Source of the DNA: a virus
Reading direction: 5' to 3' (one strand)
DNA: 64,000 bases
Virus record (IMG/VR): IMGVR_UViG_3300028920_000040
Span: 1-64,000 of that record
Positions 2 through 63,659 of the stretch are shown in pieces. The notes under the pieces were generated by a model that saw only the letters and a program-made list of their open reading frames with translations, was not told the DNA's origin and searched no databases. Position 1 is the stretch's first letter, and each line of letters begins with the position of its first letter. Made by a program: the position numbers and the translations under genes.

Positions 2-3000
2 GATCCTGGTACTAGTACAGTTATTCTTTCTGGATCAGATGAACAAGAGATTCAAGTTGGAAGTCAATATTTTAATGATCTTATTATAGAAAATGAAACC
101 AGTGCTATTACTTTTAAAGACGGATTATCTGTAAGTGGAACATTATCTGCACATGCAGAAGACAGTAATATCAATATACTATTTGATCATTTAGAACCAC
201 ATTATATTAACGAGCTAGATTTTGGTGGTTCTAGTGCAAGTTATGTTATAATAAATTCGACAGTTTCTGGTAATCAATTCGATCTTTCTTCTACGGTTGA
301 TACTACTGTTTGTTATGTGGATGTACAAGATTCTAATTTAAGTGGAGTAACGGTTTCTGCTTATCATTCAATTGATAGTGGAAACAATTCACCTAATTGG
401 ATAATTTCTTCTGCTGGTATACCATCTAATATATCAAGACGGGAAGATGCAAATAATGCGGTAGATGCTTCATCTATTACCATTAATAAACCAACGGGAA
501 CGGTTAATGGTGATGTGATGATAGCTTTTATAGCATGGGAAGATGCTAGTAGAAGCGTTACAGCAGTTCCTAGTGGATGGACTGAAATTGGAGAAATTGA
601 TACTGGAACTTTTGGATATAGTTCGGTATGTAAAGCATACTGGAAAGCGGCTAGTGGTGAGGGAAGTAATTATACATGGTCATTAGATAGTTCAAATGAT
701 ATAAAAGGTAGTATTACTTCATATACTGGTGTTGATAATACTGATCCAATATTAACATCTGCAACATTAGTAAGACAATCCGGTTCGACAACATATACAC
801 CACCTGAAGTTAATATCCCATGTCCTAATGATACTTGGGTAACAATGGTTGATCTTTCTGATGGATTCAATAGTATAAGTGTAGATCACCCCGGATATTA
901 TCAAGTTTATGACGGATTTGGAAATGGTTGTTGTATAAATGTTACAGATACAAATGGAGATGTTACTGGATATACACCAAACAGTATGACTGCTAGTGTG
1001 TCTAAACCTTGGGCGGTATTTACAATAGCATTAAATCCAGGCGAAGTTCCAGAAGAATCAAGTTCTGAATCAAGTGAATCTAGTAGTTCTGAATCAAGCT
1101 CATCATCAGAGAGTTCAAGTTCAGAATCAAGCAGTTCATCTGAGTCTAGCAGTTCAGAGTCTAGTAGTTCTTCGGAATCATCTTCTAGTGAATCTAGTAG
1201 TTCATCCGAATCTAGTTCTTCTGAATCATCGTCAAGCTCTGAATCAAGCTCATCGGAGTCAAGCTCTTCTTCTGAATCATCTAGTTCGGAGTCGAGTTCG
1301 TCTTCTGAAAGTTCAAGTTCGGAATCAAGTAGTTCATCAGAGAGTTCAAGTTCAGAATCAAGCTCAAGTTCAGAGTCTAGTAGTTCATCTGAATCATCCA
1401 GTTCCGAATCAAGCTCATCTAGTGAATCTTCTTCTAGTGAGTCTAGCTCATCATCAGAGTCTAGTAGTTCATCAGAGTCTAGTTCAAGTGAATCATCATC
1501 CTCATCGGAAAGTTCTTCATCAGAGTCTAGCAGTTCGTCTGAATCGAGTTCAAGTGAATCATCATCTAGTTCAGAATCAAGCTCAAGTTCGGAAAGTTCT
1601 TCATCAGAATCAAGTAGTTCTTCTGAAAGTTCAAGCTCAGAATCAAGCTCAAGTTCGGAATCGAGTAGTTCGTCTGAATCATCTAGTAGTGAGTCTAGCT
1701 CATCATCAGAATCAAGCTCAAGTGAATCATCATCTAGTTCGGAATCATCTAGTAGTGAATCTAGTTCCTCGTCCGAGTCAAGCTCGTCTAGTGAATCATC
1801 ATCTAGTGAGTCCAGTTCTTCTTCTGAATCATCTAGTTCCGAATCAAGTTCATCGTCGGAATCGTCATCTAGTTCTGAATCAAGTTCAAGCGAATCGTCA
1901 TCTTCATCCGAGAGTTCATCATCTGAATCAAGCTCATCTTCGGAGTCTAGTTCTTCTGAGTCTAGCAGTTCTTCTGAATCATCTAGTTCCGAATCAAGTT
2001 CATCTTCTGAAAGTTCAAGTTCAGAATCAAGTAGCTCATCTGAATCATCAAGTTCAGAATCTAGTTCATCTAGTGAATCATCATCAAGTTCAGAATCTAG
2101 TTCATCTGAATCAAGTTCAAGTTCAGAATCAAGCAGTTCATCAGAGTCTAGTTCTTCTGAATCAAGCAGTTCTTCGGAGAGTTCAAGTTCAGAGTCTAGT
2201 AGTTCTTCGGAATCTTCTAGCTCTGAATCAAGCAGTTCATCAGAGTCTAGTTCGAGTGAATCTTCATCATCATCAGAGAGTTCATCATCAGAGTCAAGCT
2301 CATCGTCAGAGAGTTCATCTTCCGAATCAAGTTCAAGTTCTGAGTCTAGTTCAAGTTCGGAAAGTTCATCTTCCGAATCAAGTTCAAGTTCAGAGTCTAG
2401 TTCTTCATCAGAGTCTAGCTCAAGTGAATCTTCGTCTAGTTCTGAATCGTCTTCTAGTGAATCTAGTAGCTCATCCGAATCATCTTCAAGCGAGTCTAGT
2501 AGTTCAAGTGAATCATCTAGTTCTGAATCATCTAGTTCAGAGTCAAGCTCAAGTTCGGAATCAAGTTCATCAGAGTCTAGTTCTTCTAGCGAATCAAGCT
2601 CTAGTGAATCTTCTTCGTCATCAGAATCATCTAGTAGTGAATCTAGCAGTTCAGAATCAAGCAGTTCATCAGAGAGTTCTTCATCAGAGTCTAGTTCTAG
2701 TTCAGAATCATCTTCTAGTGAATCAAGTAGTTCATCGGAGTCTAGTTCTTCTGAGTCTAGTAGTTCGTCTGAAAGCTCATCTTCGGAGTCGAGTAGTTCG
2801 TCTGAATCTTCTTCAAGCTCTGAATCAAGCTCAAGCGAGTCTTCATCTTCATCAGAAAGTTCATCTTCGGAGTCTAGTAGTTCATCTGAATCTAGTAGCT
2901 CTGAATCAAGCAGTTCTTCTGAAAGTTCAAGTTCAGAGTCTAGTAGTTCATCAGAAAGTTCATCATCTGAATCATCATCTAGTTCAGAATCAAGCTCGTC

Positions 3001-5350
3001 TTCTGAAAGCTCATCTTCGGAATCTAGTTCTTCTAGTGAGTCTAGCTCATCTTCGGAATCAAGTAGTTCATCCGAATCTAGTTCTTCTGAGTCCAGTTCT
3101 TCATCAGAGAGTTCAAGTTCTGAGTCAAGTAGTTCGTCTGAGTCTAGTTCAAGTTCGGAAAGTTCATCTTCTGAATCAAGCAGTTCATCTGAATCTAGCT
3201 CAAGTGAATCGTCATCTTCATCAGAAAGCTCATCATCAGAGTCTAGTAGTTCTTCTGAGTCTAGTTCTTCTGAGTCATCGTCTAGTTCGGAATCATCTAG
3301 TAGTGAGTCGAGTTCGTCTAGCGAGTCAAGCTCAAGTGAATCATCGTCTTCATCGGAGTCTAGCTCATCATCGGAGTCTAGTAGTTCTGAATCAAGTTCA
3401 AGTTCTGAATCAAGTAGTTCATCAGAGTCTAGCAGTTCGGAGTCTAGTTCATCTTCTGAATCATCTAGTAGTGAATCTAGTAGCTCATCTGAAAGTTCAT
3501 CATCAGAATCAAGCTCAAGTTCAGAATCTAGTTCGTCTGAATCCAGCAGTTCGTCTGAAAGCTCAAATTCTGAATCATCTTCAAGCTCTGAATCGTCAAG
3601 TTCAGAGTCTAGTTCTTCATCAGAGTCAAGCAGTTCAAGTGAATCTAGTTCATCTGAATCAAGCTCATCATCAGAGTCTAGTAGTTCGTCTGAGTCTAGT
3701 TCTTCTGAATCAAGCTCATCGTCAGAGTCTAGTAGTTCGTCTGAAAGCTCGTCTTCTGAATCAAGCTCGTCTTCTGAATCAAGCAGTTCTTCGGAGAGTT
3801 CAAGTTCAGAATCAAGTTCAAGTTCTGAGTCTAGTTCATCGTCAGAGTCATCTAGTTCAGAATCAAGTTCATCAAGTGAATCATCTAGTAGTGAATCTAG
3901 CAGTTCAGAATCAAGCAGTTCATCAGAGAGTTCTTCATCAGAGTCTAGTTCTAGTTCAGAATCATCTTCTAGTGAATCAAGCAGTTCATCAGAGTCTAGT
4001 AGTTCAGAATCAAGCTCTAGTGAGTCTTCATCTAGTTCTGAGTCTAGTAGTAGTGAATCATCATCTAGTTCTGAATCAAGCTCATCCGAATCAAGCAGCT
4101 CAAGTGAATCTAGTAGTTCTGAATCTTCTAGTAGTGAATCAAGCTCATCGTCTGAATCGAGTTCAAGTGAGTCTAGTAGTTCTTCGAAATCTTCTAGTTC
4201 TGAATCAAGTAGTTCTAGTGAGTCTAGCTTAAGTGAGTCTAGTTCATCATCAGAAAGTTCAAGCTCTGAGTCTAGCTCAAGCGAATCAAGTTCTAGTTCA
4301 GAATCATCATCTAGTGAATCTAGTAGTTCTTCGGAATCATCTAGTTCAAAGTCTAGTAGTTCATCTGAAAGTTCATCATCAGAGTCAAGTAGTTCGGAAT
4401 CTAGTTCGTCGTCTGAATCTAGCTTATCAGAATCTTCGTCAAGTAGTGAATCGTCTTCAAGCGAATCAAGTTCTTCATCAGAGTCGAGTTCTTCTGAATC
4501 ATCTAGTAGCGAATCGAGCTCATCATCTGAGTCTTCTTTAAGCGAATCAAGTTCATCTTCGGAGAGTTCATCATCAGAGTCGAGTAGTTCGTCTGAATCA
4601 TCAAGTTCAGAGTCGAGCAGTTCATCGGAAAGCTCTTCTTCTGAGTCTAGTTCGTCTAGTGAATCGTCTTCAAGCGAATCAAGCAGTAGTTCAGAATCAA
4701 GTTCAAGTGAATCGAGTAGTTCGTCAGAGAGTTCAAGTTCAGAGTCTAGCTCATCAAGCGAATCAAGCTCATCAGAGTCAAGTAGTTCATCAGAGTCTAG
4801 TTCGAGTGAATCTAGTAGCTCAAGTGAATCATCTAGTAGTGAGTCTAGTTCTTCTTCTGAATCGTCATTGAGCGAATCATCATCTAGTTCTGAATCTTCT
4901 AGTAGCGAGTCTAGCAGTTCATCAGAAAGTTCAAGTTCAGAATCTAGTTCATCATCATTGTCAAGCTCAAGCGAGTCAAGTAGTTCCTCAGAATCATCAA
5001 GTAGTGAATCTTCTTCTAGTTCTGAATCAAGTAGTTCATCGGAAAGTTCTTCATCCGAATCGAGTTCTAGTTCGGAATCAAGCTCATCAGAGTCAAGCAG
5101 TTCATCGGAAAGTTCTTCATCCGAATCAAGCTCTAGTTCAGAATCGAGTTTAAGCTCATCATCAGAAAGTTCAAGTAGTGAGTCTAGTTCTTCAGTATCA
5201 AGCTCAAGTGAATCAAGTGAATCATCAGAAAGTTCAAGTAGTGAGTCTAGTAGTTCAGTATCAAGCTCAAGTGAATCAAGTGAATCATCAGAAAGTTCAA
5301 GTTCTTCTGTTGTAGTAACATTAAAAAATAGAATAATGATGTTATCATAA
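2..5350 (+). CDS. Serine-rich repeat virion/adhesin protein (5' end outside window)
   Basis: The reading frame is open from the first bases, so the true start lies upstream; the first ATG inside the window (317) is not convincing. Three regions are visible. Bases 2-420 encode a beta-helix-like stretch that ends in a DSGNNSPNW motif, typical of the last coils of adhesin beta-helices. Bases 430-1045 encode a Ser/Thr/Gly-rich beta-sandwich-like domain (INKPTGTVNGD, PSGWTEI). Bases 1051-5310 encode almost only Ser and Glu, as runs of four or five Ser separated by one Glu, with rare Leu, Lys, Asn and Val substitutions. The protein ends in VVVTLKNRIMMLS. No catalytic motif is seen. I infer an extended stalk on the phage particle that may be O-glycosylated by enzymes encoded just downstream. 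The function is unproven. Confidence 0.75.
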   Translation, partial: DPGTSTVILSGSDEQEIQVGSQYFNDLIIENETSAITFKDGLSVSGTLSAHAEDSNINILFDHLEPHYINELDFGGSSASYVIINSTVSGNQFDLSSTVDTTVCYVDVQDSNLSGVTVSAYHSIDSGNNSPNWIISSAGIPSNISRREDANNAVDASSITINKPTGTVNGDVMIAFIAWEDASRSVTAVPSGWTEIGEIDTGTFGYSSVCKAYWKAASGEGSNYTWSLDSSNDIKGSITSYTGVDNTDPILTSATLVRQSGSTTYTPPEVNIPCPNDTWVTMVDLSDGFNSISVDHPGYYQVYDGFGNGCCINVTDTNGDVTGYTPNSMTASVSKPWAVFTIALNPGEVPEESSSESSESSSSESSSSSESSSSESSSSSESSSSESSSSSESSSSESSSSSESSSSESSSSSESSSSESSSSSESSSSESSSSSESSSSESSSSSESSSSESSSSSESSSSSESSSSESSSSSESSSSESSSSSESSSSSESSSSESSSSSESSSSESSSSSESSSSESSSSSESSSSSESSSSESSSSSESSSSESSSSSESSSSSESSSSESSSSSESSSSESSSSSESSSSESSSSSESSSSSESSSSESSSSSESSSSESSSSSESSSSSESSSSESSSSSESSSSESSSSSESSSSESSSSSESSSSESSSSSESSSSESSSSSESSSSESSSSSESSSSSESSSSESSSSSESSSSSESSSSESSSSSESSSSESSSSSESSSSESSSSSESSSSESSSSSESSSSESSSSSESSSSESSSSSESSSSSESSSSESSSSSESSSSSESSSSESSSSSESSSSESSSSSESSSSESSSSSESSSSESSSSESSSSSESSSSESSSSSESSSSESSSSSESSSSESSSSESSSSSESSSSESSSSSESSSSESSSSSESSSSESSSSSESSSSESSSSSESSSSSESSSSESSSSSESSSSESSSSSESSSSESSSSSESSSSESSSSSESSSSESSSSSESSSSSESSSSESSSSSESSSSSESSSSSESSSSESSSSSESSSSESSSSSESSSSSESSSSESSSSSESSSSESSSSSESSSSESSSSSESSSSESSSSSESSSSESSSSSESSSSESSSSSESSSSSESSSSESSSSSESSSSSESSSSESSSSSESSSSESSSSSESSSSESSSSSESSSSESSSSSESSNSESSSSSESSSSESSSSSESSSSSESSSSESSSSSESSSSSESSSSESSSSSESSSSSESSSSESSSSSESSSSSESSSSESSSSSESSSSSESSSSESSSSSESSSSESSSSESSSSSESSSSESSSSSESSSSESSSSSESSSSESSSSESSSSSESSSSESSSSSESSSSESSSSSESSSSESSSSESSSSSESSSSESSSSSKSSSSESSSSSESSLSESSSSSESSSSESSSSESSSSSESSSSESSSSSESSSSKSSSSSESSSSESSSSESSSSSESSLSESSSSSESSSSESSSSSESSSSESSSSESSSSSESSLSESSSSSESSSSESSSSSESSSSESSSSSESSSSESSSSSESSSSESSSSSESSSSESSSSSESSSSESSSSSESSSSESSSSSESSSSESSSSSESSSSESSSSSESSLSESSSSSESSSSESSSSSESSSSESSSSSLSSSSESSSSSESSSSESSSSSESSSSSESSSSESSSSSESSSSESSSSSESSSSESSSSSESSLSSSSESSSSESSSSVSSSSESSESSESSSSESSSSVSSSSESSESSESSSSSVVVTLKNRIMMLS
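2624..2727 (+). repeat. 104-bp direct repeat, copy 1
   Basis: By eye, this segment is identical to 3878-3981. In an array whose synonymous codons are otherwise scrambled, 104 identical bases point to a recent duplication or gene conversion. The two copies start 1,254 bp apart, a multiple of three, so the frame is kept. Confidence 0.85.
3878..3981 (+). repeat. 104-bp direct repeat, copy 2
   Basis: Second copy of the 104-bp segment at 2624-2727. The match starts at GAATCATCTAG and ends at AGTGAATCAAG, after which the copies differ at the next base (T against C). Confidence 0.85.
5161..5302 (+). repeat. 63-bp tandem duplication at the end of the Ser-rich array
   Basis: ATCAGAAAGT recurs at 5161, 5224 and 5287, giving a 63-bp (21-residue) tandem unit present about 2.2 times. 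The first two units differ only at a few bases. The unit introduces Val (SSSSVSSSSE) and closely spaced Glu (ESSESSE), unlike the main array. Confidence 0.85.
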
Positions 5351-5370
5351 ATAATATAAAATTGACAAAG

Positions 5371-5378
5371 TATAAATA
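5371..5378 (+). promoter_or_regulatory. Late promoter -10-like TATAAATA
   Basis: Exact match to the T4 late promoter octamer TATAAATA, 45 bases before the start at 5423. A TTGACA lies at 5362 but is only 3 bases away, so a sigma-70 promoter is not indicated. It would drive the glycan-modification cluster. Confidence 0.55.
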
Positions 5379-5422
5379 AAATATTATTTTAATATGTTAT
5401 ATAAATTGAAAAAGGAGTTTAT

Positions 5423-7129
5423 ATGGAAAGTGAATTGACTTTTAGTACATTTGACAAGATACCTATTCCATTTGAAAAACATTATAAAAATAAATCCTGT
5501 TTTTTAATTTTATCAGGACCTTCATTAAATAAACACGACTTGACGCAATTAAAACAGCCAGGTATAATTACATTTGGTGTAAACAATTCTGTAAAAACAT
5601 TTAGACCTAATTTATGGTCGTGTGTAGACCATCCGTCTAGATTTATGATTAGTATTTGGAAGGACCCAAATATTACTAAATTTGTTCCTTTTTTTAAATC
5701 CAAATCAAATCTTTTTGATAATGCTAATTGGAAACATACTGATTTAAGAGTTATGGATTGTCCCAATGTAATTTATTATCATCGAAACGAACATTTTAAT
5801 GCCGATACATATTTAACAGAAAAAACGGTCAATTGGGGAAATCATAAAAAATATGGTGGAGGCCGTAGTATAATGTTGGCCGCAATAAAAATATGTTATT
5901 TATTGGGATTTAAAAACGTATTTTTACTTGGATGTGATTTTAAAATGGTCGAAGGACAACAAAATTATTCTTGGAATCAAGATAGACATCCAGGCTCAAT
6001 TAAAGGTAATAATAGTACTTATAATAAATTAATAGAAAGATATAAACAGTTACAACCAATTTTTGAGAAAAACGATTTTCATGTTTATAATTGTAATCCC
6101 GATTCACAACTTAAGGTATTTTCTTTTATAGACTATAGTGAAGCCATTTCATTATCTTTAAATGAATTCCCAGATGTTACAACTGAAAAGGCAGAAGGAA
6201 TGTATAATAGGTTTGATGAAGAAAATAGTAAGAAAAAAGAGAAAAAGAAAACAGAAAAGATAGAAAAAGCAATTAAAAAAATTAAGAAAAATGAAAAACC
6301 AATTAGTGGTTCCTGTGGAGTTATTTATTATAATGTGGGCAGAGGAGCAATAGTAAGACTTGCAGTTTCTCTTTCTACATGTGTAAATTATTATCCTAAA
6401 GATAAAATTACAATTTTATCAGACTATGAAGGCTATGATGATTGTAAGAAAATTGCAAATCATTTTGGTGTTAATATAAAAATTATTGAGTTGGAAAAAC
6501 TTAACAGAAAACAAATTCTTTTAAATAAATGTCTAGCTCATAATTATACACCTTATGATAATACAATATTCATCGATTCTGATACAATTATTTTGGGAAA
6601 ATTTGACGAACTTCACGATGAAGCTGACAGAAATGAATTTGTAGTTACACAATTTTCTGATTGGACAACTAAAAGAAGTGTAATTAAAAAGAGAATAAAA
6701 GAATGGAAAGAAATATTTCCTGAGATGATAAAAGAAGCACTTGAGGAAAGACCTTCAGTTAATGTTGGTGTATTTGCTTTTCGTAAAGATAGTGAATTTA
6801 TGAATGCTTGGTTTGACTATGCTAAACATGGTACTCATATGTTTATACCGGACGAACAATGTTGTCACTTATTATTACCAAAATATAAGAATAGTATAGT
6901 ATCTAATGATTATAATACTAGTTGTAAATATGATAAGGTTAAAGATACAACTAAGATACTTCACTTTCATGGAAAAAAACATTGTAGATTGGACGCTAAT
7001 AAAAATTATATAAATAACAGCGATAAATGGTATGCGGAATTTGATAAGATTAGCGAATTAGATTTCGTTAAAAATAACATTGAATTTGATAAACAACTGA
7101 GAAAACATTTACCAGAAAGAGCCATATGA
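5423..7129 (+). CDS. Two-domain glycosyltransferase (MptE/DUF115-like N-terminus, GT-A C-terminus)
   Basis: 568 residues, preceded by AAGGAG. The N-terminal half has an ILSGPSL motif (about 29-35) and a later FGVNNS, resembling the DUF115/6-hydroxymethylpterin pyrophosphokinase MptE-like fold that also occurs in motility accessory factor glycosyltransferases. A Lys/Glu-rich linker (about 270-293) joins it to a second domain beginning CGVIYYNVGRGA. That domain carries the metal- and nucleotide-sugar-binding DxD motif (DSD at 385-387), as in GT8-like enzymes. The domain pair suggests transfer of sugars to a protein or surface glycan. It is the first gene after the Ser-rich protein, which makes that protein a plausible acceptor. 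The acceptor and sugar are inferred, not shown. Confidence 0.7.
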   Translation: MESELTFSTFDKIPIPFEKHYKNKSCFLILSGPSLNKHDLTQLKQPGIITFGVNNSVKTFRPNLWSCVDHPSRFMISIWKDPNITKFVPFFKSKSNLFDNANWKHTDLRVMDCPNVIYYHRNEHFNADTYLTEKTVNWGNHKKYGGGRSIMLAAIKICYLLGFKNVFLLGCDFKMVEGQQNYSWNQDRHPGSIKGNNSTYNKLIERYKQLQPIFEKNDFHVYNCNPDSQLKVFSFIDYSEAISLSLNEFPDVTTEKAEGMYNRFDEENSKKKEKKKTEKIEKAIKKIKKNEKPISGSCGVIYYNVGRGAIVRLAVSLSTCVNYYPKDKITILSDYEGYDDCKKIANHFGVNIKIIELEKLNRKQILLNKCLAHNYTPYDNTIFIDSDTIILGKFDELHDEADRNEFVVTQFSDWTTKRSVIKKRIKEWKEIFPEMIKEALEERPSVNVGVFAFRKDSEFMNAWFDYAKHGTHMFIPDEQCCHLLLPKYKNSIVSNDYNTSCKYDKVKDTTKILHFHGKKHCRLDANKNYINNSDKWYAEFDKISELDFVKNNIEFDKQLRKHLPERAI

Positions 7130-8661
7130 GAAGAAGAAGTTTTACAATAGTCACATCATGTACTCCGGAATATTTAACAAAACTAAAATGGACTATTCCA
7201 ACTTGGAATTTGAAACCCCAGTTTAGAGGAAAGAAATTAATATTATTTCATCATGGGTTTGATAATTTATCTGATTTAGATTTTGTTAAGAACTATTTTG
7301 ATACTAAGTTGATTGAATGGGATATGCCGGAGTATAGTAATGATAGAGAGCTAATGCTTTCGTCTTTTATTTTTGGTTCGGCTAAGCATGTTAAAACTCC
7401 TTATTTTGTAAAGATTGATGTAGATGCTTTTTTTACCACGCCTGATGATGTTTTTGGAAGAAAGGATTTCAGATGTGATGTTGTTGGACATTCGTGGAAA
7501 TATACTAAACCGGGTTATTGGATAAATGATTTAGATAAGTATTACTCCGGACAAGATACAGGCAAGTATGGCAGAACATATCGACATCGCCGCCTCGCCA
7601 GTTTTGGTTGTTTACATAAAACTGAATTTGTTCAGATGTTAGCAAATAAGTTTGGTAACAGACTTCCAGTTCCAAGTCATGATACGGTTGTTTGGTATTT
7701 TGCTGATAAGATGCCAGATAGGAAATGGGGCAGTAAAAAAATTAAAAGAAAGGGATTTACCAATTCTTCAAGGATGGGAAAAATTAAACAACAAGTGTGT
7801 GATACAATTAATGCTTATCCAGATTTCTTTAAAAACAACTTACCAGATTATATTCGACAAGAATTTAACAAAAGAAATTATCCTCAAACAATGATAAAAC
7901 CAGAACTTCCATCAATAGAGATTTGTTATTTTTGTCATAATTTTCAAAGAAGGTTAAATTGGGTTTTATCAAGTATAGTCGAACAGGTCGGTGAAGTGCC
8001 TGATATCATTATTAATATTGCATCATTAGAAAATAATGGTTTACCAACAACAGAAGATTTAGTTAAATATTATTCTGATAATTATGGATTGGTCTTTAAT
8101 CATATTATTTTTAAGGAAAAAAATCAAATAAATTTAAGGGGAATAATTAGAAATATTCAAATAGAAAAATCTAAATGTGATTGGTTACATTTTGCTGATG
8201 CTGATCATTTGTTTCATCCAACATTTTTTAGTGAATTGGGAAAGGTACTAAGGAGTGGAGAGAAAGACGATGGCATCCTTTTTTCTTCCAATAAGATCAC
8301 AACAGATATTGAAGCAACTAATAAAGTCTTTGAGGATAAGGATAAAGCATACTTTCAAGAGAATGTTTTCGATGTTAGTTTCCAAATCCCAATGATTAGG
8401 CATCGGGTTAAAAAGGTTGCTGGTGGTAATATGCAAATTGTCAGTAGAAAAATTATTAATGAGAAGTGTGGTGGAAAATATGTAGACCCATCAGCGAATA
8501 GAGATAGAGGATATTTTTCAAGAAGAGGCGGTACAGCCAGAAGTGATAAACAGTTTAGGAGAATCATCGCAAATCAATATCGTTTGAGATTGCCTACTGT
8601 TATCAACTTGAATCATTATAGAGATAAGGAAGTCGGTCATCATTTGGAAGAACAGCGGTAA
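7126..8661 (+). CDS. Two-domain GT-A glycosyltransferase
   Basis: 511 residues; its ATG overlaps the previous stop (ATGA), so the two genes are probably translationally coupled. The first domain opens with FTIVTSCTPEYL and has FVKIDVDAFF, with DVD at 98-100 as a DxD motif. The second domain starts near residue 264 (IEICYFCHNF) and resembles GT2 enzymes, with FADADHLF and DAD at 358-360. Two DxD sites in one chain suggest a bifunctional enzyme that adds two sugars or alternates linkages. The ending (FSRRGGTARSDKQFRRI, then NLNHYRDKEVGHH) fits a GT-A acceptor-side region. The substrate is unknown. Confidence 0.7.
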   Translation: MRRRSFTIVTSCTPEYLTKLKWTIPTWNLKPQFRGKKLILFHHGFDNLSDLDFVKNYFDTKLIEWDMPEYSNDRELMLSSFIFGSAKHVKTPYFVKIDVDAFFTTPDDVFGRKDFRCDVVGHSWKYTKPGYWINDLDKYYSGQDTGKYGRTYRHRRLASFGCLHKTEFVQMLANKFGNRLPVPSHDTVVWYFADKMPDRKWGSKKIKRKGFTNSSRMGKIKQQVCDTINAYPDFFKNNLPDYIRQEFNKRNYPQTMIKPELPSIEICYFCHNFQRRLNWVLSSIVEQVGEVPDIIINIASLENNGLPTTEDLVKYYSDNYGLVFNHIIFKEKNQINLRGIIRNIQIEKSKCDWLHFADADHLFHPTFFSELGKVLRSGEKDDGILFSSNKITTDIEATNKVFEDKDKAYFQENVFDVSFQIPMIRHRVKKVAGGNMQIVSRKIINEKCGGKYVDPSANRDRGYFSRRGGTARSDKQFRRIIANQYRLRLPTVINLNHYRDKEVGHHLEEQR

Positions 8662-8706
8662 AACTGTAATAAACTGATTGAAAGCCCGCTTAATAGGAGT
8701 ATAGTA

Positions 8707-9345
8707 ATGAGAGTTAATTATTTTGATTTAGGTTTATATACTGCAGTCGAACTAGATTGGATGGTAAATAGTATCCTGCCTTCAATTGGTGTATTGGATT
8801 TTAGAGCCTATGGATTTGAAGCAAATCCAACAATATACCAAAAAGATGTTCAGAAATTTAAATCACATGATAAAGTTGAAATTTTTAATCTTGCAATTTG
8901 TCGGCAAAACACTAAAATCAATTTTTACCTTTCAGACAACCCAGTAAGTCATTCTATTTATTCAACAAAAAAGAATGTTGATGCCAATAAATTTATTGAA
9001 GTTCAAGGTGTAGTTTTTTCTGATTGGATTAAGGAAAATGTCCCAACTTTTAAAAAAGACTTTAACATAATTAAAGCCAATATAGAAGGTGCTGAATGGG
9101 ATTTAATGAATGACTTAAATGATAATGATATGATAAAAAACATTCAAATTTTTTGTGGTCAGTTCAAAGATGTTAAGAAAGTTAAAGAACTCAGAGGCAA
9201 TTTGCGAACATATAGAAATTTTTTCAAAGAAAACAACATTCGAATTGAAAGATTTGCTTCCCATCGTAGACGTAAAAATGCAGACATGAGTTCGATTATA
9301 AAAGAAAAACTTAAAAGTTTTGGCAAAAATAGTTATGAAAAATAA
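8707..9345 (+). CDS. FkbM-family SAM-dependent methyltransferase
   Basis: 212 residues. FDLGLYTAVELDW near the N-terminus is the glycine loop of the methyltransferase fold. YGFEANP (35-41) supplies the acidic residue that usually holds the SAM ribose. IEGAEWD (126-132) matches the conserved FkbM IEGAE signature. FkbM enzymes O-methylate sugars and small molecules. Between glycosyltransferases, this one most likely caps or decorates a glycan. An AGGAG lies 7 bases before the start. The last bases overlap the next gene. Confidence 0.8.
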   Translation: MRVNYFDLGLYTAVELDWMVNSILPSIGVLDFRAYGFEANPTIYQKDVQKFKSHDKVEIFNLAICRQNTKINFYLSDNPVSHSIYSTKKNVDANKFIEVQGVVFSDWIKENVPTFKKDFNIIKANIEGAEWDLMNDLNDNDMIKNIQIFCGQFKDVKKVKELRGNLRTYRNFFKENNIRIERFASHRRRKNADMSSIIKEKLKSFGKNSYEK

Positions 9346-10273
9346 AGGATGCATATTAATTCCAGATTTTAGTGTTTATTGTTTAAATCCCGGAACACTT
9401 TATTGTAGATATGGCGCATATATTCCACTATTTCAACTAATAGAAAAAAATTTGGGATTCAAAAGCATTGTATTAAAAGAAAATAATTTTGAAGAATTAT
9501 ATGATTATGATGTTATCATAACTTTTACATTTCCTTGTAGAGTTAGTTATTCTTTTGAAAAAAATATTTATAAACTTTCTAAGGATGTTAAGATTATTGG
9601 ATATTTTACGGATTTGTTTAATTCTTTGCGTAGAAGAAAATCAAGGTTTAATATTTTAATGGAAAGATGTGATAAAATAGTATATACATATGATGAAGCT
9701 TTTAAAAATAGGTGGCCACAATTTATTGAAAAGGCTGAGTGGGTGCCACAGTTTTTAAGTCTTTCAGATTATGTAAAAAACTTAAAAATAAATGAGAACC
9801 CGATAAATAAGTGTCTTGTATCGGGTCGTACTCGGAGGCGCCACTATCCATTAAGGTCTTTTGTTTCTAAACATTTACGTCAAAATGATAATATAGATTT
9901 TTTAAAACATCCTAAATATATTAAAAATGAAGCTTTGATTAAATATGATTACTTAAATTTTTTACACAAATATCGTTGTTGTTTGTCTAGTTGTTCTGCT
10001 TTTAAATGTGTTGTCCGAAAAAATTTTGAAATACCTTCCACTGGTTCTATTCTATTATCTGACACTTGTGAGGATATGAAGAAATTAGGATTCATTCCAT
10101 CTGTTAATTATGTAGATGTAAATAAAGAAAACTTTGAAAAAAAGGTTAGGGATATATTGAATCATCCAGAAGATTATGAACACATAAGAGAAAATGGAAG
10201 GAAATTTGTTTTGGAGAACCATACAGAGTATCATAGGTTTGAACAGTTAAAAAGGATAATTGAAGAATTATGA
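9335..10273 (+). CDS. CgeB-like glycosyltransferase (GT-B)
   Basis: About 312 residues. A longer frame begins with TTG at 9320, but the ATG at 9335 gives MKNKGCILIPDFSV and is the better start; neither has a strong ribosome site. The second half fits the spore-maturation CgeB/Glyco_trans_1_2 type: a block of the form FEIPSTGSILLSDT, then VDVNKENFEKKVRDILNHPE, then REN-GRKFVLENHT. In this family these residues form the nucleotide-sugar-binding lobe. It overlaps the upstream methyltransferase by 11 bases and the downstream radical SAM gene by 4. Donor and acceptor are unknown. Confidence 0.75.
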   Translation: MKNKGCILIPDFSVYCLNPGTLYCRYGAYIPLFQLIEKNLGFKSIVLKENNFEELYDYDVIITFTFPCRVSYSFEKNIYKLSKDVKIIGYFTDLFNSLRRRKSRFNILMERCDKIVYTYDEAFKNRWPQFIEKAEWVPQFLSLSDYVKNLKINENPINKCLVSGRTRRRHYPLRSFVSKHLRQNDNIDFLKHPKYIKNEALIKYDYLNFLHKYRCCLSSCSAFKCVVRKNFEIPSTGSILLSDTCEDMKKLGFIPSVNYVDVNKENFEKKVRDILNHPEDYEHIRENGRKFVLENHTEYHRFEQLKRIIEEL

Positions 10274-11400
10274 AAATTGATATGCGCCCACCACAATACC
10301 ATTACTTCAATCAGCTAATGGAACATGTGGAAAATAAAGATATTTTCTTTGGTGATAGATTTATCTATCCCAGACAATTTGAAATACATCTTCCAGGCGA
10401 CCATAGGAAGGCTTGTAATCTTCATTGTCCTCACTGTGCTGGTAAGTTGTTTGATAAATCTCTTGGAACTTGGGAAGTAGAGGGACTTGCTTTACTACAT
10501 AAACTTAAAGGCGCAATTCCTTTTCATATCTATGGTGGAGCTTATACAGAACCTTTGATGAACCCATACTATATGTCCTATCTTGCCACTACAAAATATT
10601 ATGGTAATCACTTTGGTATTCATACGAACGGAAGTCTCTTAACAACACTTGAAAAGAAAACTGGATTCTTAACAGAGTTGAATAGAATTTCCACTGACGA
10701 TATTGATTATCTGTCGGTGAGCATTGATGCTGGTTTACCAGAATCTTGGGCAAAGACCAAGGGTACGAAAGAGAATTATTTGTTCAATGATGAAATCATT
10801 AAGGGTCTTGAGTATGCAACAGATATTCGTAAGAGAGTTGGCAAACCGAGTCATGCAATACGGATGTGTTACCTTATATCACACCACAGCGATAATGATG
10901 AAAATTTCAAGGCTATTGTTGAACACGCAAAGAGAATAGGAGTAGACAGTCTCCGTTTTTCAATACCATTTGCTAACTATAATCAATCATTTGACAAGGT
11001 TAGAGAATATAAAAACAACAGAGAACTTCCTGACGATGAAAATTATTATAAAAGGCTACAACAATATCTTTCTAAAAGTAAAGATGAAAGACCATACATT
11101 TTCTATACAGGACCGGAGTTTACAGATATAGATGAGTTTAATTTTAGTCAATGCATTTATGGATATTATCAGATTACTTTTGGTGCTGACGGATATGTAT
11201 ATAAGTGTAGTACAACAGCAACACCGACTGGTAAACAATGCCGGTTGGGAAGAATTACTGCGGATATTGATGAGTTTAGAAAAATGATAGAGAAGAATTA
11301 TAATCCCAATTGGGATGCCCAGAAAAATTGTTTTAATTGTGGTCTTCGTTGTAATAGAATGGGTCTTGAAATTAACAAGGCATATCAGGATATGAAATAA
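10270..11400 (+). CDS. Radical SAM/SPASM-type protein
   Basis: 376 residues. C49-x3-C53-x2-C56 (ACNLHCPHCAG) is the classic radical SAM motif that binds a 4Fe-4S cluster and SAM. IYGGAYTEP and LSVSIDAG are typical radical SAM core strands. The C-terminus has a cysteine set (QCIYGYYQ, YKCSTT, KQCRLG, then NCFNCGLRC) consistent with a SPASM or twitch auxiliary cluster. Such proteins modify peptides or small carbohydrates. The ATGA overlap with the glycosyltransferase and the TAATG overlap with the oxidoreductase place it in the glycan operon. The reaction cannot be told from sequence. It could act on a sugar nucleotide or on a virion protein. Confidence 0.85.
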   Translation: MKIDMRPPQYHYFNQLMEHVENKDIFFGDRFIYPRQFEIHLPGDHRKACNLHCPHCAGKLFDKSLGTWEVEGLALLHKLKGAIPFHIYGGAYTEPLMNPYYMSYLATTKYYGNHFGIHTNGSLLTTLEKKTGFLTELNRISTDDIDYLSVSIDAGLPESWAKTKGTKENYLFNDEIIKGLEYATDIRKRVGKPSHAIRMCYLISHHSDNDENFKAIVEHAKRIGVDSLRFSIPFANYNQSFDKVREYKNNRELPDDENYYKRLQQYLSKSKDERPYIFYTGPEFTDIDEFNFSQCIYGYYQITFGADGYVYKCSTTATPTGKQCRLGRITADIDEFRKMIEKNYNPNWDAQKNCFNCGLRCNRMGLEINKAYQDMK

Positions 11401-12284
11401 TGTCATTAACTGATAAAAGAAATAAAGTCGCTTTGATAGGAAAAGGATATTGGGGAAGCAAGCTTTTGAAGTATATACCAAATCACTTCGATTTGGTTGC
11501 TGTGGCAGATTCTAAAACTGATTTGAAACAGATATGGAGTTCAGATATTGAGTCTGTTATCATAGCGACTCCAATACAGACTCACTATGAACTAACTAAG
11601 GAGGCTCTCCTTGCGGGTAAGAATGTCTATGTTGAGAAGCCTTTAGCGTTAAAGTATGAGCAAGGTATTGAAATTGTAAATATTGCAAGAGAGAAAGGAT
11701 TGAGGCTTGATGTTGAATACACTCAGATGTTCTCAAAAGGTCTTCAATATATACAATCAAAGGATATTGGAGAGATAGAGTTTATTGAAATGTCAACTAA
11801 ACATCTTGGAAGATTCGTGGATTATGATGTTTTTTGGTTGTTGGTATCTCACCACTTATCAGTTCTTCCAATGTTTTTCAGCCTTTTAGATTTGGACTTT
11901 AATTTCAAAAAGTATATGTTTCATAATGGTATTTGTACTACGGGTTCTATTGAATGTTTGAAGAAAGGAACTGACAAGATAAAAGCCAAATTGGACGTAA
12001 GTTTGAATTACTATAAGAAGGAATTTTGTATAAATGTTTATGGTACGAAAGGATTTGCTAAATATGATGCAACAAATCAAATTCCAGTTTCTATAACTTG
12101 GTATGAAAAAAAGCGTTCAGTATTACCAAACGAAATGATTATCGGCGTAGAAAATATAAGATTTGATGAAATGAATAATCTTGAATTATCTATTAAACAT
12201 TTCAAAGATTTGATAGAAGGTAGAGATGTTGACAATCTTGATATAGCTCTTGAAATTACCAGAATTCTTGAAAATGGAGGTTAA
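11400..12284 (+). CDS. Gfo/Idh/MocA-family NAD(P)-dependent sugar oxidoreductase
   Basis: 294 residues; the ATG shares a base with the previous stop. The N-terminal Rossmann fold shows VALIGKGYWGSK, with G14-x-G16-x-x-G19. IIATPIQTHYELTKEALLAGKNVYVEKPLA contains the EKP motif (79-81) that supplies the catalytic Lys of the family. It is slightly shorter than the usual 330-400 residues. Related enzymes oxidise C2, C3 or C4 hydroxyls of nucleotide sugars. Beside glycosyltransferases and a cupin, I infer a role in making an unusual activated sugar. Confidence 0.85.
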   Translation: MSLTDKRNKVALIGKGYWGSKLLKYIPNHFDLVAVADSKTDLKQIWSSDIESVIIATPIQTHYELTKEALLAGKNVYVEKPLALKYEQGIEIVNIAREKGLRLDVEYTQMFSKGLQYIQSKDIGEIEFIEMSTKHLGRFVDYDVFWLLVSHHLSVLPMFFSLLDLDFNFKKYMFHNGICTTGSIECLKKGTDKIKAKLDVSLNYYKKEFCINVYGTKGFAKYDATNQIPVSITWYEKKRSVLPNEMIIGVENIRFDEMNNLELSIKHFKDLIEGRDVDNLDIALEITRILENGG

Positions 12285-12286
12285 TT

Positions 12287-12649
12287 ATGATCAAACAATC
12301 AAAGGTCTGGGGCGAAACAGCTAAAATATTTTCACTTAATAATGTAGAGATACATAGAATTGAAATTGAACCCGGTGGATATTGTAGCGAACATTGCCAC
12401 GAATTTAAATATAATCAATTCTTTATAGAGAGTGGGGAGATAGAAGTTACAATATATAGAGACAACGGCATTGAAGAAACTACAGTTCTTAAACCTTATG
12501 ATCAAACAACAGTTCCACCAAAACTCGTTCATAAATTTAAAGCTAATCGAAAATCAATAGTTTACGAGATTTATTGGGTTGCAATGGAAGGAGAAGATAT
12601 TGTAAGGAGAACTGTTGGTGGAAAAATTACTAATAAGAAAATTAAATAA
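12287..12649 (+). CDS. Cupin-fold protein, mannose-6-phosphate isomerase type II-like
   Basis: 120 residues with GGAGG upstream. The first cupin motif is visible as PGGYCSEHCHEFKYNQFFIE: H36 and H38 with downstream polar residues and G50. The second motif is around VPPKLVHKF. These residues would bind a divalent metal. Small cupins of this type isomerise or epimerise sugars or act as accessory subunits in sugar-nucleotide pathways. The last gene of the glycan block, it follows the oxidoreductase directly, so the two may act in sequence. The exact reaction is unknown. Confidence 0.7.
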   Translation: MIKQSKVWGETAKIFSLNNVEIHRIEIEPGGYCSEHCHEFKYNQFFIESGEIEVTIYRDNGIEETTVLKPYDQTTVPPKLVHKFKANRKSIVYEIYWVAMEGEDIVRRTVGGKITNKKIK

Positions 12650-14308: not shown

Positions 14309-16180
14309 ATGAATATTGCAAGTCTTTTTGGATTTAACAAATTTGCAAAGTTTTTTGTTGGTGCTAGAAAAGAAGAAGAGCACCAAGAAAAAGAGGAAAT
14401 GGATAATAGCGTAGGTATTTCTCAGGAAGAAATAGATGCCGCGCGAACTATGTCAACTGCTAACTCTAATAGTTATCAGTACACTGGTGGGTTGACATAT
14501 ATAGGTATCCAGTTCGAACAATACTTTTCCAATAAGGCCGCGAGAATTGTTAAATATCGTGAAATGTCTTTCTTCCCTGAAATTGCAGATTCGATTTATG
14601 CTATTTGTGATGAAGCTATAGTAGATAATCCTGTTGATGGTGATATTGTTAAACTTGATATTAATGTTGAAATGCCAGAACATATTGAAGAAGAAGTAAG
14701 AAAGATTTGGGAATATCTATCTAATGATGTTTTTTCTTTTAATGAAAGAGCATGGGATTTATTTAAGAAATGGCTTGTCGAAGCAGAGTTATATGTAGAA
14801 TTAATTCTTAATGACGAAGGTGATAATATTATAGGTATTAAGATTCTTCCTGCATATACAATGATGCCTATCTATGAAGAAAATAAGATTAGAGGATATG
14901 TACAATCGAAGACTCCTGCCGCTGCAAATACACCTACAAGAGAAGCAGGCGAACAGCAACAACATAATACTGTATTTGATAAAGATCAAGTTTCATATAT
15001 TAATTATGGTTTGTATGGTCATAACTTTTATGATGTAAGAGGATTTCTTGAGTCGAGTATTAGAACATATAATCAACTTAGAAATCTTGAAGACTCATTA
15101 GTTATTTACAGACTTGTACGTGCTCCTGAAAGAAAGATTTGGAATATTGCTGTTGGTAGAATGCCTAAGGGTAAAGCAGAAGAATATATTAGAGGAATGA
15201 TTCAGAGATATAAAAAGAGAATTGTTTATGATAGTGAAACTGGAGCTATGAACTCTGCACAAAATATTCAAGCTCTTACTGAAGACTTTTGGTTTGCAAA
15301 AAATGATCGTGGTGAAGGAACATCGGTTGAAACTATCGGTGGAACTATGAATCTTGGTGAGATTGAAGATGTTAATTATTTTCTCAAGAAATTATATAAA
15401 GGATTAAAACTTCCGAAGTCAAGATGGGAAGACCCTGCATCTAGTATGTATTCGGCTGGCAAGTCTGGAGAAATACAAAGAGAAGAAATTAAATTTGCAA
15501 GGTTTGTTGAAAGACTTCAGAGAAGATTTAAATATGTTATTCTTGAACCTTTCTTAACTCTTCTTAGATTAAGAGGAATTGATGAAAGATATATTGGCGA
15601 TGGAATATATAATCTTAGTTTTAATAAAGCCAATTTGTTCAAGGAATATAAAGAGCTTGAACTTAACGAAGCTAAGTTTGGTCTTCTTGGTTCAATAGAC
15701 AGTTATGTTTACAAACCAGGCGAAAACGATTCTGGATTCTTTTCAAGAGAATTTGTTATGAGAAAATATTTTCAACTTAGTGATGAAGAGTGGAACGAAA
15801 ATATTGAGATGGTTAATGCCGAAAGAGCCCAAGCACAATCTGAAGGAGAAACTGGTGGTGAAGGCGAAGCAGGCGGCGGATTTGGAGAAGAAGAGTTTGG
15901 AGGATTCGGTGGTGGAGAAATTGGCGGCGGCGGAGAATTTGGCGGCGGTGGTGGTACGGAACCAACTCCTGAAACTCCCGAAGCTCCCCCAGCAGAAACC
16001 CCAGCCGAAACGGCTCCGGAGACTGCTCCTGAATCTGTACAGTATAAAAAAGGATATCTCAAGAAAAAGGATACAAATAAAAAGAATAGAGGAGACGGTC
16101 TTGTAAGTTCTTGGAAGCAAGAAGATAAGACTATTAGAGAAAAATATAATCATGGAGATAGAATAATTTCTAAAAAATAG
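14309..16180 (+). CDS. gp20: Portal vertex protein (T4 gp20-like)
   Basis: 623 residues. Segments typical of T4-like portals include the FEQYFSNKAARIVKYREMS region, YAICDEAIVD, YRLVRAPERKIWNI and KLYKGLKLPKSRWED. The portal dodecamer occupies one vertex, starts prohead assembly and is the DNA channel for the terminase. Its place before core, protease, scaffold and capsid genes matches T4 order. It is longer than T4 gp20 (524) because of a C-terminal tail from about residue 510 that is rich in Gly/Glu (EFGGGGG) then Pro/Ala/Glu and ends in a Lys/Arg-rich patch. That tail is probably disordered. GGAG precedes the start. Confidence 0.92.
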   Translation: MNIASLFGFNKFAKFFVGARKEEEHQEKEEMDNSVGISQEEIDAARTMSTANSNSYQYTGGLTYIGIQFEQYFSNKAARIVKYREMSFFPEIADSIYAICDEAIVDNPVDGDIVKLDINVEMPEHIEEEVRKIWEYLSNDVFSFNERAWDLFKKWLVEAELYVELILNDEGDNIIGIKILPAYTMMPIYEENKIRGYVQSKTPAAANTPTREAGEQQQHNTVFDKDQVSYINYGLYGHNFYDVRGFLESSIRTYNQLRNLEDSLVIYRLVRAPERKIWNIAVGRMPKGKAEEYIRGMIQRYKKRIVYDSETGAMNSAQNIQALTEDFWFAKNDRGEGTSVETIGGTMNLGEIEDVNYFLKKLYKGLKLPKSRWEDPASSMYSAGKSGEIQREEIKFARFVERLQRRFKYVILEPFLTLLRLRGIDERYIGDGIYNLSFNKANLFKEYKELELNEAKFGLLGSIDSYVYKPGENDSGFFSREFVMRKYFQLSDEEWNENIEMVNAERAQAQSEGETGGEGEAGGGFGEEEFGGFGGGEIGGGGEFGGGGGTEPTPETPEAPPAETPAETAPETAPESVQYKKGYLKKKDTNKKNRGDGLVSSWKQEDKTIREKYNHGDRIISKK

Positions 16181-42682: not shown

Positions 42683-43138
42683 ATGAAAACAATAACTATT
42701 ATAATAGAAGGAACAGAATCTTTATATCCTAAATGTAAAGATGTTATTATTATACCGGATGAAAAAGGAGCAGATTCAAAAAGAAAAGCAGTATTAAAAG
42801 ACCTTTATCTTATGGATTATCTAGCTGAACATTCTGACGTTTTATATCACGATGCAGATTGTAGAGTCTATAAAAAGATATATAAATTTCTAGAGGGTAA
42901 AAAAATAGCATGTGGGAAGACTATAAATGTATTTGATTCCTTCTTGGTATATAGTAATGATACAAGATTTTGGCAAAGACTTAAGAAAGAATATATTAAG
43001 TTTAATTATGAAATACACGGTCCTATATATGGATTTTTAAGTAAATTATTGCGTAGAAAGGATTTAGTCAAAATTCCAAAAAATATGTATAAACATAGAA
43101 TGAGAACATATAAGAGTCTAACACGAAATAAAATATAA
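42683..43138 (+). CDS. Small GT-A-like protein coupled to the fibre gene
   Basis: 151 residues. It starts one base after the fibre stop and has no visible ribosome site, so it is probably read by coupling. SDVLYHDADCRVYKKIYKFL contains a DxD motif (D57, D59) in the usual GT-A context, with a hydrophobic strand before it. DSFLVYSNDTRFWQRLKKEY is like the acceptor-side part of sugar transferases. It is short for a full enzyme (usually 200 or more), so it may be a minimal or degenerate glycosyltransferase. A role in modifying the fibre is inferred from position. Confidence 0.5.
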   Translation: MKTITIIIEGTESLYPKCKDVIIIPDEKGADSKRKAVLKDLYLMDYLAEHSDVLYHDADCRVYKKIYKFLEGKKIACGKTINVFDSFLVYSNDTRFWQRLKKEYIKFNYEIHGPIYGFLSKLLRRKDLVKIPKNMYKHRMRTYKSLTRNKI

Positions 43139-46643: not shown

Positions 46644-48977
46644 ATGGCATATTGGGTAGACATAAATAACTCTTATTCATCGACTGGTGCTGGTACTAGT
46701 GTATCTCCATTTAGTTGGTCTCAATTCATAACTGATTTAGCAGATGCTTCTTTAAGTACTAGAACATATTATGTATCTGGTACTAGAACATTATCAACCA
46801 ATACAACTATAACAATTGACTCTATTGATACGTCTACTACAGGCGCATCAGTCGTTACTATTAATGATTGGGATGGCGAGCCTTGGAGAATTATAGGAGA
46901 TGCTAGTGTAGGAATTATTAATATTAATTCTTCTTATGTTAGATATCTTTATTTGCGCGGAGGTATGATCCAAGGAACTAAAAGTGGATTTTTCTCCACT
47001 ATATATTGTGCATCTACTCCATCTTCTTTTTGCGATGTTACAATCGATTCGATGTGGATTAATTTTTATACTTCATTTGTAATTCGTAATTATGATGATG
47101 TATATGTTTATAATAGTTTACTTAGTGATACTAATCAAGGATTGGTTGGTTCTAATCCAGGATCGTTTGGAGTTTATAATAGCGATACCGCAACAATAAG
47201 AAATACTATATTGGCAATAGGAGCATTTAGTGCTCCAGATTCGACAAATACATTAGACAATGTTGTTTCTACAAGAGTGGCTTTTCCTATTACAATAGGA
47301 TCATCTATTGATACAAGTAGTTCTGTTCAACTTGATTGGGAATCAGACCCAATTGTTTCATCTGCGGTAAATTTATTAAGCGCTTCTAATATAAGTTATC
47401 TTACATCCTCTTTTGATGGAATATCTGCAACTGGAAATGCATCACCCGCATTATCATATACATGGTTTGATGGAACAAGAGATGGAGTCGGAGCACTTTA
47501 TTTTCCAACGATTACAGTAAGTGCTTCTGCTACTCCTTCATCTGCCGCCGCGGGTGATACTATAACGATTGATATAAATGATGTTTTTACAGAATTTAGT
47601 GCTTCGAGTGCAACATTTAATTTTGGCGATTCAACAAGTACGACTGTAAATGAACCATCAGCAACTCATGTTTATTCTGCTGTTGATGATTATAGTGTTA
47701 CTGTTTCTGTTCTTTCTAAGAATGAATGGTATAGTTCTGTATCTGATGCTATAACAGTTTCTATATCTGCTGGTGATGCATCGGCGACATTTGAATTTTT
47801 AGATTCTGATACTTCTGCAGTAACAACTTCTGCTGAAACATATACTGACGTTTTAATGTCAGCAACAATAGTTAGTGGTGATGTTGTTTCTTATATAATG
47901 GACTGGGGAGATGGTACATCTTCTACATATACAGGATCAGACCCGATAAGTACTATTCCAGTATTAACACACCAATATATTTCATCGGGAAGTCTTACAG
48001 GAACAATTAGTGTTAATAATAGAAATCCTTTTAATAAAAGTTTAAATACATATATTAGAACTCCGACGACATATTATGTAGATATTAATAATTCATATAC
48101 TTCTTCAGGTAATGGATTATTAGCAACCCCATTAAATTATTCTCAATTCAAGACTACAATTGAGGATGGTGGAGATGGAGAATTTGGAGATATATTTAAA
48201 TTAAAGGGATATAGAGAATTAACATATGGTACGGATTTTGTTAATAGTTTAATATTAATAGCCGATCCAACTCTTTCGTTTGTAATTGATGCTTGGGATT
48301 TATCTGCATATGGTCCTTGGATGATCTCGCCGGAAATTTATCCGGGCGCATTAACATCAATATTGTCATTTAAGAACAGTACTCTTAAAAATGGAATTTT
48401 ATATAATAGAGTTTACTTTGATAATAGAGGAGTTATTTTTTATCTTTCTTCAATGAAAGATACTTTCGTTGTTAATCAAGGAACAAATAGTAGAATTATT
48501 CTTTCTCCAAGTACACAATTAAGCGGTACTCCTATTAGTGGGTGTGATATTATTGGTTCGACATTATATTGTGAAAATGGATATAGAGATAATGCAGATC
48601 AAGCATACGATATAAATCTTACTGACTCTGTATTTGTTGGATTTGAAAATCAAGTTAGTGGAACATATTTTACTAGTGCAACAGTAAATATAACTAACAG
48701 TACTTTTACAGACGATGCTTCTTCATTATTATCAGGATTTAATATTGGTACGAGCGCGAGTTCACAATATGGATGGACTGCTCCAACAGATTATCCGTTT
48801 ACTCCTACTAATGAAGCATATGGACAATCACTAGATTGGCTATTACTAAATAAAAGAGCTTTAAGACCATTCTCTGGAATTACAACTCCTCCAAATCCTG
48901 GTGATGGATATGATACATATCCGGGTTATACAACTGGATTATTTGGAAATTCTAGAAAAGACTATGAGGCACCATAA
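46644..48977 (+). CDS. Modular adhesin-like structural protein with PKD domains
   Basis: 777 residues. A module beginning YWVDINNSYSSTGAG-TSVSPF occurs at the N-terminus and again near 478 (YYVDINNSYTSSGNG). It precedes a beta-helix-like region rich in Asn, Ser and Thr. Between the copies lie two PKD-like beta-sandwich domains with FNFGDSTSTT (about 326-335) and DWGDGTSST (420-428). It ends YTTGLFGNSRKDYEAP. Related modules occur in the proteins at 49606 and 51334. Likely an exposed baseplate or fibre protein binding carbohydrates or other proteins. There is no clear ribosome site; the start lies 8 bases after gp6. Confidence 0.7.
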   Translation: MAYWVDINNSYSSTGAGTSVSPFSWSQFITDLADASLSTRTYYVSGTRTLSTNTTITIDSIDTSTTGASVVTINDWDGEPWRIIGDASVGIININSSYVRYLYLRGGMIQGTKSGFFSTIYCASTPSSFCDVTIDSMWINFYTSFVIRNYDDVYVYNSLLSDTNQGLVGSNPGSFGVYNSDTATIRNTILAIGAFSAPDSTNTLDNVVSTRVAFPITIGSSIDTSSSVQLDWESDPIVSSAVNLLSASNISYLTSSFDGISATGNASPALSYTWFDGTRDGVGALYFPTITVSASATPSSAAAGDTITIDINDVFTEFSASSATFNFGDSTSTTVNEPSATHVYSAVDDYSVTVSVLSKNEWYSSVSDAITVSISAGDASATFEFLDSDTSAVTTSAETYTDVLMSATIVSGDVVSYIMDWGDGTSSTYTGSDPISTIPVLTHQYISSGSLTGTISVNNRNPFNKSLNTYIRTPTTYYVDINNSYTSSGNGLLATPLNYSQFKTTIEDGGDGEFGDIFKLKGYRELTYGTDFVNSLILIADPTLSFVIDAWDLSAYGPWMISPEIYPGALTSILSFKNSTLKNGILYNRVYFDNRGVIFYLSSMKDTFVVNQGTNSRIILSPSTQLSGTPISGCDIIGSTLYCENGYRDNADQAYDINLTDSVFVGFENQVSGTYFTSATVNITNSTFTDDASSLLSGFNIGTSASSQYGWTAPTDYPFTPTNEAYGQSLDWLLLNKRALRPFSGITTPPNPGDGYDTYPGYTTGLFGNSRKDYEAP

Positions 48978-60528: not shown

Positions 60529-60529
60529 A

Positions 60530-62845: not shown

Positions 62846-62846
62846 T

Positions 62847-63650: not shown

Positions 63651-63659
63651 GGAGCTTCT

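Follow-up and report, generated by a model that had tools for sequence, protein, structure and literature searches.

A probable O-glycosylation cassette beside a serine-rich stalk gene in a T4-like phage

The window analysed here covers the first 64 kb of a virus record of 123,835 bp. It encodes a serine-rich stalk of great length directly upstream of seven genes that include three glycosyltransferases. One of these, a two-part enzyme (GT1), recurs next to Ser-rich virion proteins in several phages of unrelated lineages, which argues that the enzymes probably put sugar on the stalk. The explanation that we favour as probable is that the stalk belongs to a virion fibre, and that the phage carries its own cassette for O-glycosylating the stalk serines before the particle is assembled.

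The serine/glutamate stalk and its neighbouring genes

The stalk lies within ORF 2..5350 (+), whose 5' end is missing, as the record starts inside it. A first-pass annotation of this DNA had described a Ser/Glu stalk of about 1,400 residues, and this description is accurate: the repeat runs for 1,419 aa from nt 1052 and is composed of 1,153 Ser, 255 Glu and 11 other residues (81% Ser), with Ser runs between single Glu residues of length 5 in 131 cases and of length 4 in 117. Each of the six Ser codons occurs, with a usage broadly similar to that in the window's other genes, and the longest exact DNA repeat is 104 nt. Thus, the mixed, gene-like codon use marks this as a repeat at the protein level, rather than a simple DNA repeat or slippage tract. 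Chance is excluded as well, as 60-aa windows contain at most 38% Ser throughout 39 control phage loci (637 kb). A further frame that looks Ser-rich, at 56747-57613 (-), was discarded because it runs antisense to a Glu/Lys-rich gene (56520-57911); such antisense frames are an artefact to beware of in scans for Ser-rich proteins.

The non-repeat N-terminal part shares 32% identity, across 137 aa, with the N-terminal region of a Ser-rich protein in contig L007, gives weak matches only against PHROG, and returned nothing from a PDB sequence search. Neither this region nor GT1 found a match by tblastn against 50,697 annotated phages. At its other end, the stalk protein finishes in a short tail (VVVTLKNRIMMLS). 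The corresponding motif, LNNR[IV]M[MV]L[SN] (LKNRIMMLS in the window), also ends the Ser-rich stalks of L028, L007 and L030, and a different tail, VGRG[IM]YRGI.RG, ends those of L078 and L079. When the exact pattern of the C-terminal motif was searched across viral contigs, it returned two known relatives and two unrelated chance matches.

The stop of the stalk ORF is separated by 72 nt from the start of GT1, the first of seven genes on the same strand that lead into a T4-like structural module (Table 1); the portal gene of this module confirms that the record is a phage. The neighbours previously listed for the stalk (three glycosyltransferases, an FkbM methyltransferase, a radical SAM protein, a sugar oxidoreductase and a cupin) are all recovered by Pfam or PHROG, with GT1 and GT2 falling below the Pfam cutoffs in the window (GT1, MptE-like PF01973 at 4e-7 and a PHROG sialyltransferase at 6e-12; GT2, PF00535 at 9e-4) and supported by family profiles and relatives. 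Homologues in L006 are 67% identical to GT3 and 82% identical to the radical SAM protein. A radical SAM domain is found in the cassettes of the window, L007, L100 and L107 and, judging from sequence, in others; no radical SAM gene was seen in the cassette of L047. Radical SAM, methyltransferase or sulfotransferase functions are present in several cassettes, not in all.

Table 1. Features of the stalk locus (window coordinates)
Feature	Position	Strand	Basis or comment
Non-repeat N-terminal part of stalk protein	2..1051	+	incomplete, contig begins here
Ser/Glu stalk, (S4-5 E)n, 1,419 aa	1052..5308	+	composition count
Short basic/hydrophobic C-terminal tail, ...LKNRIMMLS	5309..5350	+	motif comparison with other contigs
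GT1: N-half Maf/CstII (GT42)-like (MptE-like), C-half glycogenin/GT8-like with DxD; cassette marker	5423..7129	+	Pfam, PHROG, model
GT2: GT-A-like N-half, family-2 glycosyltransferase C-half	7126..8661	+	Pfam, family profile
FkbM-type methyltransferase	8707..9345	+	PF05050 2e-5
GT3: Glyco_trans_1_2 (GT-B) glycosyltransferase	9320..10273	+	PF13524 5e-12
Radical SAM protein	10270..11400	+	PF04055 4e-7
GFO_IDH_MocA sugar oxidoreductase	11400..12284	+	Pfam 3e-16
Cupin_2 protein, kept in cassette of relatives	12287..12649	+	Pfam 7e-8
Portal protein, first of T4-like head/tail module	14309..16180	+	PHROG portal 2e-107

Because GT1 is split into two separate ORFs in L031, L032 and L047, its halves were aligned separately (A6, GT1-N; A7, GT1-C). 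A structure model of GT1-N from eight sequences (pLDDT 68.7, pTM 0.76) matched the Maf structure 5MU5 first in the PDB and CstII next, though modestly, with E of about 0.015 (above 0.001), probabilities of 0.80-0.91 and TM scores of about 0.4 (0.39 for 5MU5). PF01973 matches GT1-N above the cutoff in L047 and below it in the window. GT1-C matches a glycogenin profile (E 1.5e-4 to 3e-3) in the DxD region only, where D94xD96 is invariant across eight sequences. A full-length GT1 model from three sequences was unusable (pLDDT 35), a PDB sequence search with GT1-N found nothing, and GTDB genomes contained no GT1 relatives.

The acceptor of CstII is lipooligosaccharide, not protein, and enzymes of the Maf/CstII fold are known to use CMP-sugars as donors. 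The GT1-N gene of L107 overlaps one for a cytidylyltransferase (PF02348 3e-27), and cytidylyltransferases score above the cutoff in 5 of 16 searched records, namely L107 and four with the gene elsewhere in the record. Such genes would be expected if the GT1 donor were CMP-activated, and the sugar donor is possibly a CMP-activated keto-sugar.

Serine-rich proteins in virus particles of related phages

To place the stalk, we retrieved relatives of the portal, GT1, cupin and gp14 from viral contigs. In L013, a Ser stalk runs straight into a C-terminal T4 gp14 neck domain (PF11649 2e-8; PHROG head closure 9e-15), and L086 encodes a second stalk-gp14 fusion (ORF and profile match). Stand-alone Ser stalks are encoded near gp14 in L007, L075, L078 and L079. 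Elsewhere, the Ser-rich carrier is a different protein: the tail sheath in L031 (2e-8), a head-tail adaptor in L103 (2e-5), a structural or baseplate-type protein in L100 (best match 2.5e-31 to an unnamed family; baseplate wedge 4e-20) and a structural protein in L104 (3e-19); that of L047 is an unassigned protein, encoded about 12 kb from a major head protein gene. These fusions and carriers in relatives give good support to the earlier view of the stalk as a virion component. The window protein itself is probably part of the virus particle, judging from homology, the shared C-terminal tail and gene position.

Where the start of a stalk protein is visible, its head domain is Laminin_G_3 (L006 and L079) or BclA_C-like (L007), and these domains appear to be swappable among relatives. 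Because gp14 itself takes the place of the tail in the fusions, we infer that the C-terminal tail serves to dock the stalk at the neck. No gp14 gene was found in the window's record, where it probably lies beyond the contig start, so the attachment site of the window stalk is proposed by analogy.

Two further protein sets were noted in the record. N-termini of the form M-x(0-2)-F-x(1-2)-[YF]...[LI]xE (e.g. MSFKDYLKKKLNE) begin 13 of 191 forward ORFs, versus 0.6 expected from shuffled N-termini; these ORFs are at window positions 58212-61018 and 13134, and at record positions 78970-94813 (L003, L004). The sequence is similar to capsid-targeting leaders of the T4 type that include a prohead-protease site, and the ORFs that carry it would then make up a large group of head proteins that are internal and possibly injected. 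Record positions 79341-87206 and 113180-114496 (L003, L004, L005) encode six or more paralogous proteins, each about 380-465 aa long, that share an FGMESIY..PKDKEQQLFDFYAL-type sequence.

Association of the enzyme pair with serine-rich proteins

How regularly do these enzymes accompany Ser-rich proteins? With the cupin as bait, 42 loci were collected. A Ser-rich ORF is present in 8 of the 9 that also carry GT1 and GT2 (the window included), and in 0 of the 33 without the GT1/GT2/cupin triad. The cupin was rejected as a cassette marker, since 33 loci have it without the GT pair or Ser-rich proteins. A scan with A6 (GT1-N) gave 16 loci. Both GT1 halves are present in 13 contigs from about seven lineages, counting the window and excluding L105, which is cut off by the contig end; a Ser-rich ORF lies inside the fetched locus in 12 of them, and in 0 of 3 loci with A6 only. 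Compared with matched controls, the difference is 12/13 versus 0/36 (Fisher p ~1e-10), or 7/8 versus 0/36 when T4-like contigs are counted once (p ~2e-7); both p-values presume independent observations, which incomplete contigs and common descent only partly allow. The contigs are mostly partial and the lineages were grouped by inspection; GT1-N identity of about 32-55% between lineages argues for real divergence. The richest 60-aa window reaches 60-92% Ser in 11 of 12 fetched cassette loci and 30% in L101, against the control ceiling given above. A second control set, obtained through a GDP-fucose-synthase-like gene, comprised only two loci (0/2 Ser-rich), and whole-record Ser patterns were dropped as a count, being too permissive.

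The two kinds of gene are also close together. From the stop of the Ser-rich ORF to the glycosyltransferase start on the same strand is 17 nt in L007, about 2-20 nt in L030, 42 nt in L031, 20 nt in L104 and 40 nt in L100, so that, with the window, six contigs from several lineages have a Ser-rich ORF ending within 72 nt of a cassette glycosyltransferase. The recurrence of Ser-rich proteins with these enzymes in other phages, for which the first-pass annotation had proposed a search, is found.

There are exceptions in both directions. In L101, the GT1 pair is present with no Ser-rich ORF in 20 kb. Conversely, the 65-kb contig G009 (L079) encodes a LamG domain and Ser stalk beside gp14 and portal, and has no match to the GT1-N or GT2 profiles, PF00535, PF05050 or PF13524. 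A stalk can therefore occur without the cassette, unless the enzymes are off the contig or host-encoded. Together, these cases point to a one-sided dependence, in which the cassette nearly always accompanies Ser-rich proteins and Ser-rich stalks also occur alone. A GT2 of the cassette family, followed by a radical-SAM-like ORF, was also seen at L093 3515-4905, with no Ser-rich protein in 10.8 kb.

Under the explanation that we favour, ORF 2..5350 would encode a virion fibre made of a head domain (incomplete in the window; lectin-like LamG or BclA_C-like jelly-roll in relatives), the stalk and a short C-terminal docking tail, through which it would probably attach at or near the neck. GT1, with its Maf/CstII-like and glycogenin/GT8-like transferases, would add sugar to stalk serines in the cytoplasm of the infected cell, and GT2 and GT3 would lengthen it. 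The methyltransferase, oxidoreductase, cupin and radical SAM enzymes may make or decorate the sugar, and glycosylation would precede incorporation of the stalk into the particle. The earlier claim that the stalk is glycosylated by its own neighbours gains from the 12/13 versus 0/36 association and from the GT1-N fold, while glycosylation itself, serine as the acceptor, the donor, the order of steps and a benefit to the phage (stiffening, protease resistance and concealment of the particle had been offered as candidates) are what we infer from the genes.

The record also contains a second glycan cluster, which extends from window position 61288 to 64000 and on to record position 72264 (L003 1-8264) and adjoins a 1,532-aa fibre-like ORF. 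It includes GT2, GT47/RXYLT1-like, GT10-like, FkbM, Glyco_transf_15 (4e-29), GDP-sugar epimerase-type, DegT and NUDIX genes, as well as at least one Pfam-supported sulfotransferase and two more by similarity or inspection. Thus, not every sugar gene need serve the stalk, and this cluster may well act elsewhere, for example on the host surface. Within the tail-fibre genes, two small ORFs (window 42683-43138 and 48977-49609) look glycosyltransferase-like by eye, with DxD-like motifs; the second has no supporting Pfam match.

The stalk-adjacent enzymes could themselves alter LPS or capsule on the surface of the host, for example to exclude other phages, with adjacency to the stalk reflecting a shared variable region. 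This role has been proposed for the cell-surface sugar genes of T4-like cyanophages such as P-SSM2 (PMC9602691). The second cluster (61.3-72.3 kb), with its sulfotransferases, GDP-sugar enzymes and GT10-type transferase, would fit such a role, as would the stalk without a cassette in G009. Nevertheless, we consider this unlikely for the stalk-adjacent genes, since it leaves unexplained both the 12/13 versus 0/36 association and the short gaps in several lineages, and offers no account of why differing Ser-rich virion proteins lie beside the same enzymes.

Less likely still, the stalk could be an unmodified, disordered acidic linker, and the adjoining enzymes unrelated to it. A Ser/Glu repeat can by itself take the form of an extended polyelectrolyte, and no member of the searched cassette families accompanies the stalk of G009, but the association again speaks against this idea. 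We give very little weight to a non-sugar modification of the stalk serines, such as phosphorylation at Ser-x-x-Glu-like sites or radical-SAM chemistry: a Glu every 5-6 residues does put most serines near an acidic residue, and radical SAM domains occur in at least four cassettes, yet no kinase was matched with confidence, three of the seven genes are glycosyltransferases, and the L047 cassette does without a visible radical SAM gene. Finally, action of the glycosyltransferases on phage DNA, which is known for other phage enzymes (PMC12619734), is hardly credible here, as no hydroxymethyl-nucleotide synthesis gene was noticed on reading the record's ORF lists and linkage to Ser-rich virion proteins would have no reason.

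We see an even chance that the cassette is a mobile O-glycosylation system common to unrelated phages and serving Ser-rich segments grafted onto any exposed virion protein (neck fibre, gp14, tail sheath, head-tail adaptor), which would be the phage equivalent of mucin-like or SRR glycoprotein coats, initiated by an enzyme of its own (Maf/CstII-like plus glycogenin-like). Few phages are known to have glycosylated virions. If tied to Ser-rich segments in this way, the cassette (GT1 pair, often GT2, cupin, methyltransferase, radical SAM) would allow virion glycosylation to be predicted from environmental phage sequence, the Ser-rich repeats of phage structural proteins would gain a probable function, and a compact cytoplasmic Ser O-glycosylation system would become available for study in E. 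coli.

Comparison with known glycosylation systems

Cyanophages P-SSM2 and S-SSM7 carry clusters of cell-surface sugar genes that were proposed to act on the host surface (PMC9602691). The present locus is similar in having many sugar genes in a T4-like phage, but no link to Ser-rich virion proteins is described in PMC9602691, and a narrow literature search found none between phage Ser-rich structural proteins and such a cassette. Maf enzymes, according to PMC4065374 and PMC3426422, O-glycosylate Ser/Thr of flagellin, a filament protein, before its export, and the first match of the GT1-N model was to an enzyme of this kind. However, the score is weak (E 0.015, TM 0.39), GT1 includes a fused GT8-like domain, and no flagellin is involved. 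According to Freeman et al. 2023, as cited in PMC12619734, mycobacteriophage capsid and tail-tube proteins have glycans attached to their C-termini. Here, by contrast, the candidate acceptor is a Ser/Glu stalk of 1,419 aa whose glycosylation is predicted; in terms of the mycobacteriophage work as summarized there, the stalk and cassette appear to extend virion glycosylation.

The closest parallel in layout is with the SRR adhesin loci of Gram-positive bacteria (GspB/Fap1/SRRP with GtfA/GtfB and SecA2/Y2; PMC6973325). In both, a long Ser-rich stalk is flanked by a binding domain on one side and a short C-terminal end on the other, and several glycosyltransferases and sugar-tailoring genes adjoin; the very long Ser-rich repeat region typical of SRR proteins is present in the window (81% Ser). 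The differences are the S4-5E repeat, the virion-protein carriers and the Maf/CstII-like plus glycogenin/GT8-like enzyme pair. There is no LPXTG wall anchor, the window protein ending in ...VVVTLKNRIMMLS and its relatives in LNNR[IV]M[MV]L[SN] or VGRG..YRG. By inspection and Pfam, the proteins of L006, L007 and L079 have no long signal peptide or AST region and start directly with a LamG or BclA_C-like domain, and no gene of the cluster belongs by Pfam to the GtfA/GtfB pair or to SecA2/SecY2/Asp. Of the earlier suggestion that this is a phage version of an SRR locus, then, the similar layout holds and the proposed role is supported, whereas the LPXTG anchor, the Gtf-type signature and, in relatives, the secretion signal are missing. 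With anchor, priming pair and signal features absent where tested, the stalk and its cassette are, on sequence grounds, best regarded not as a member of the SRR loci, but as their functional analogue.
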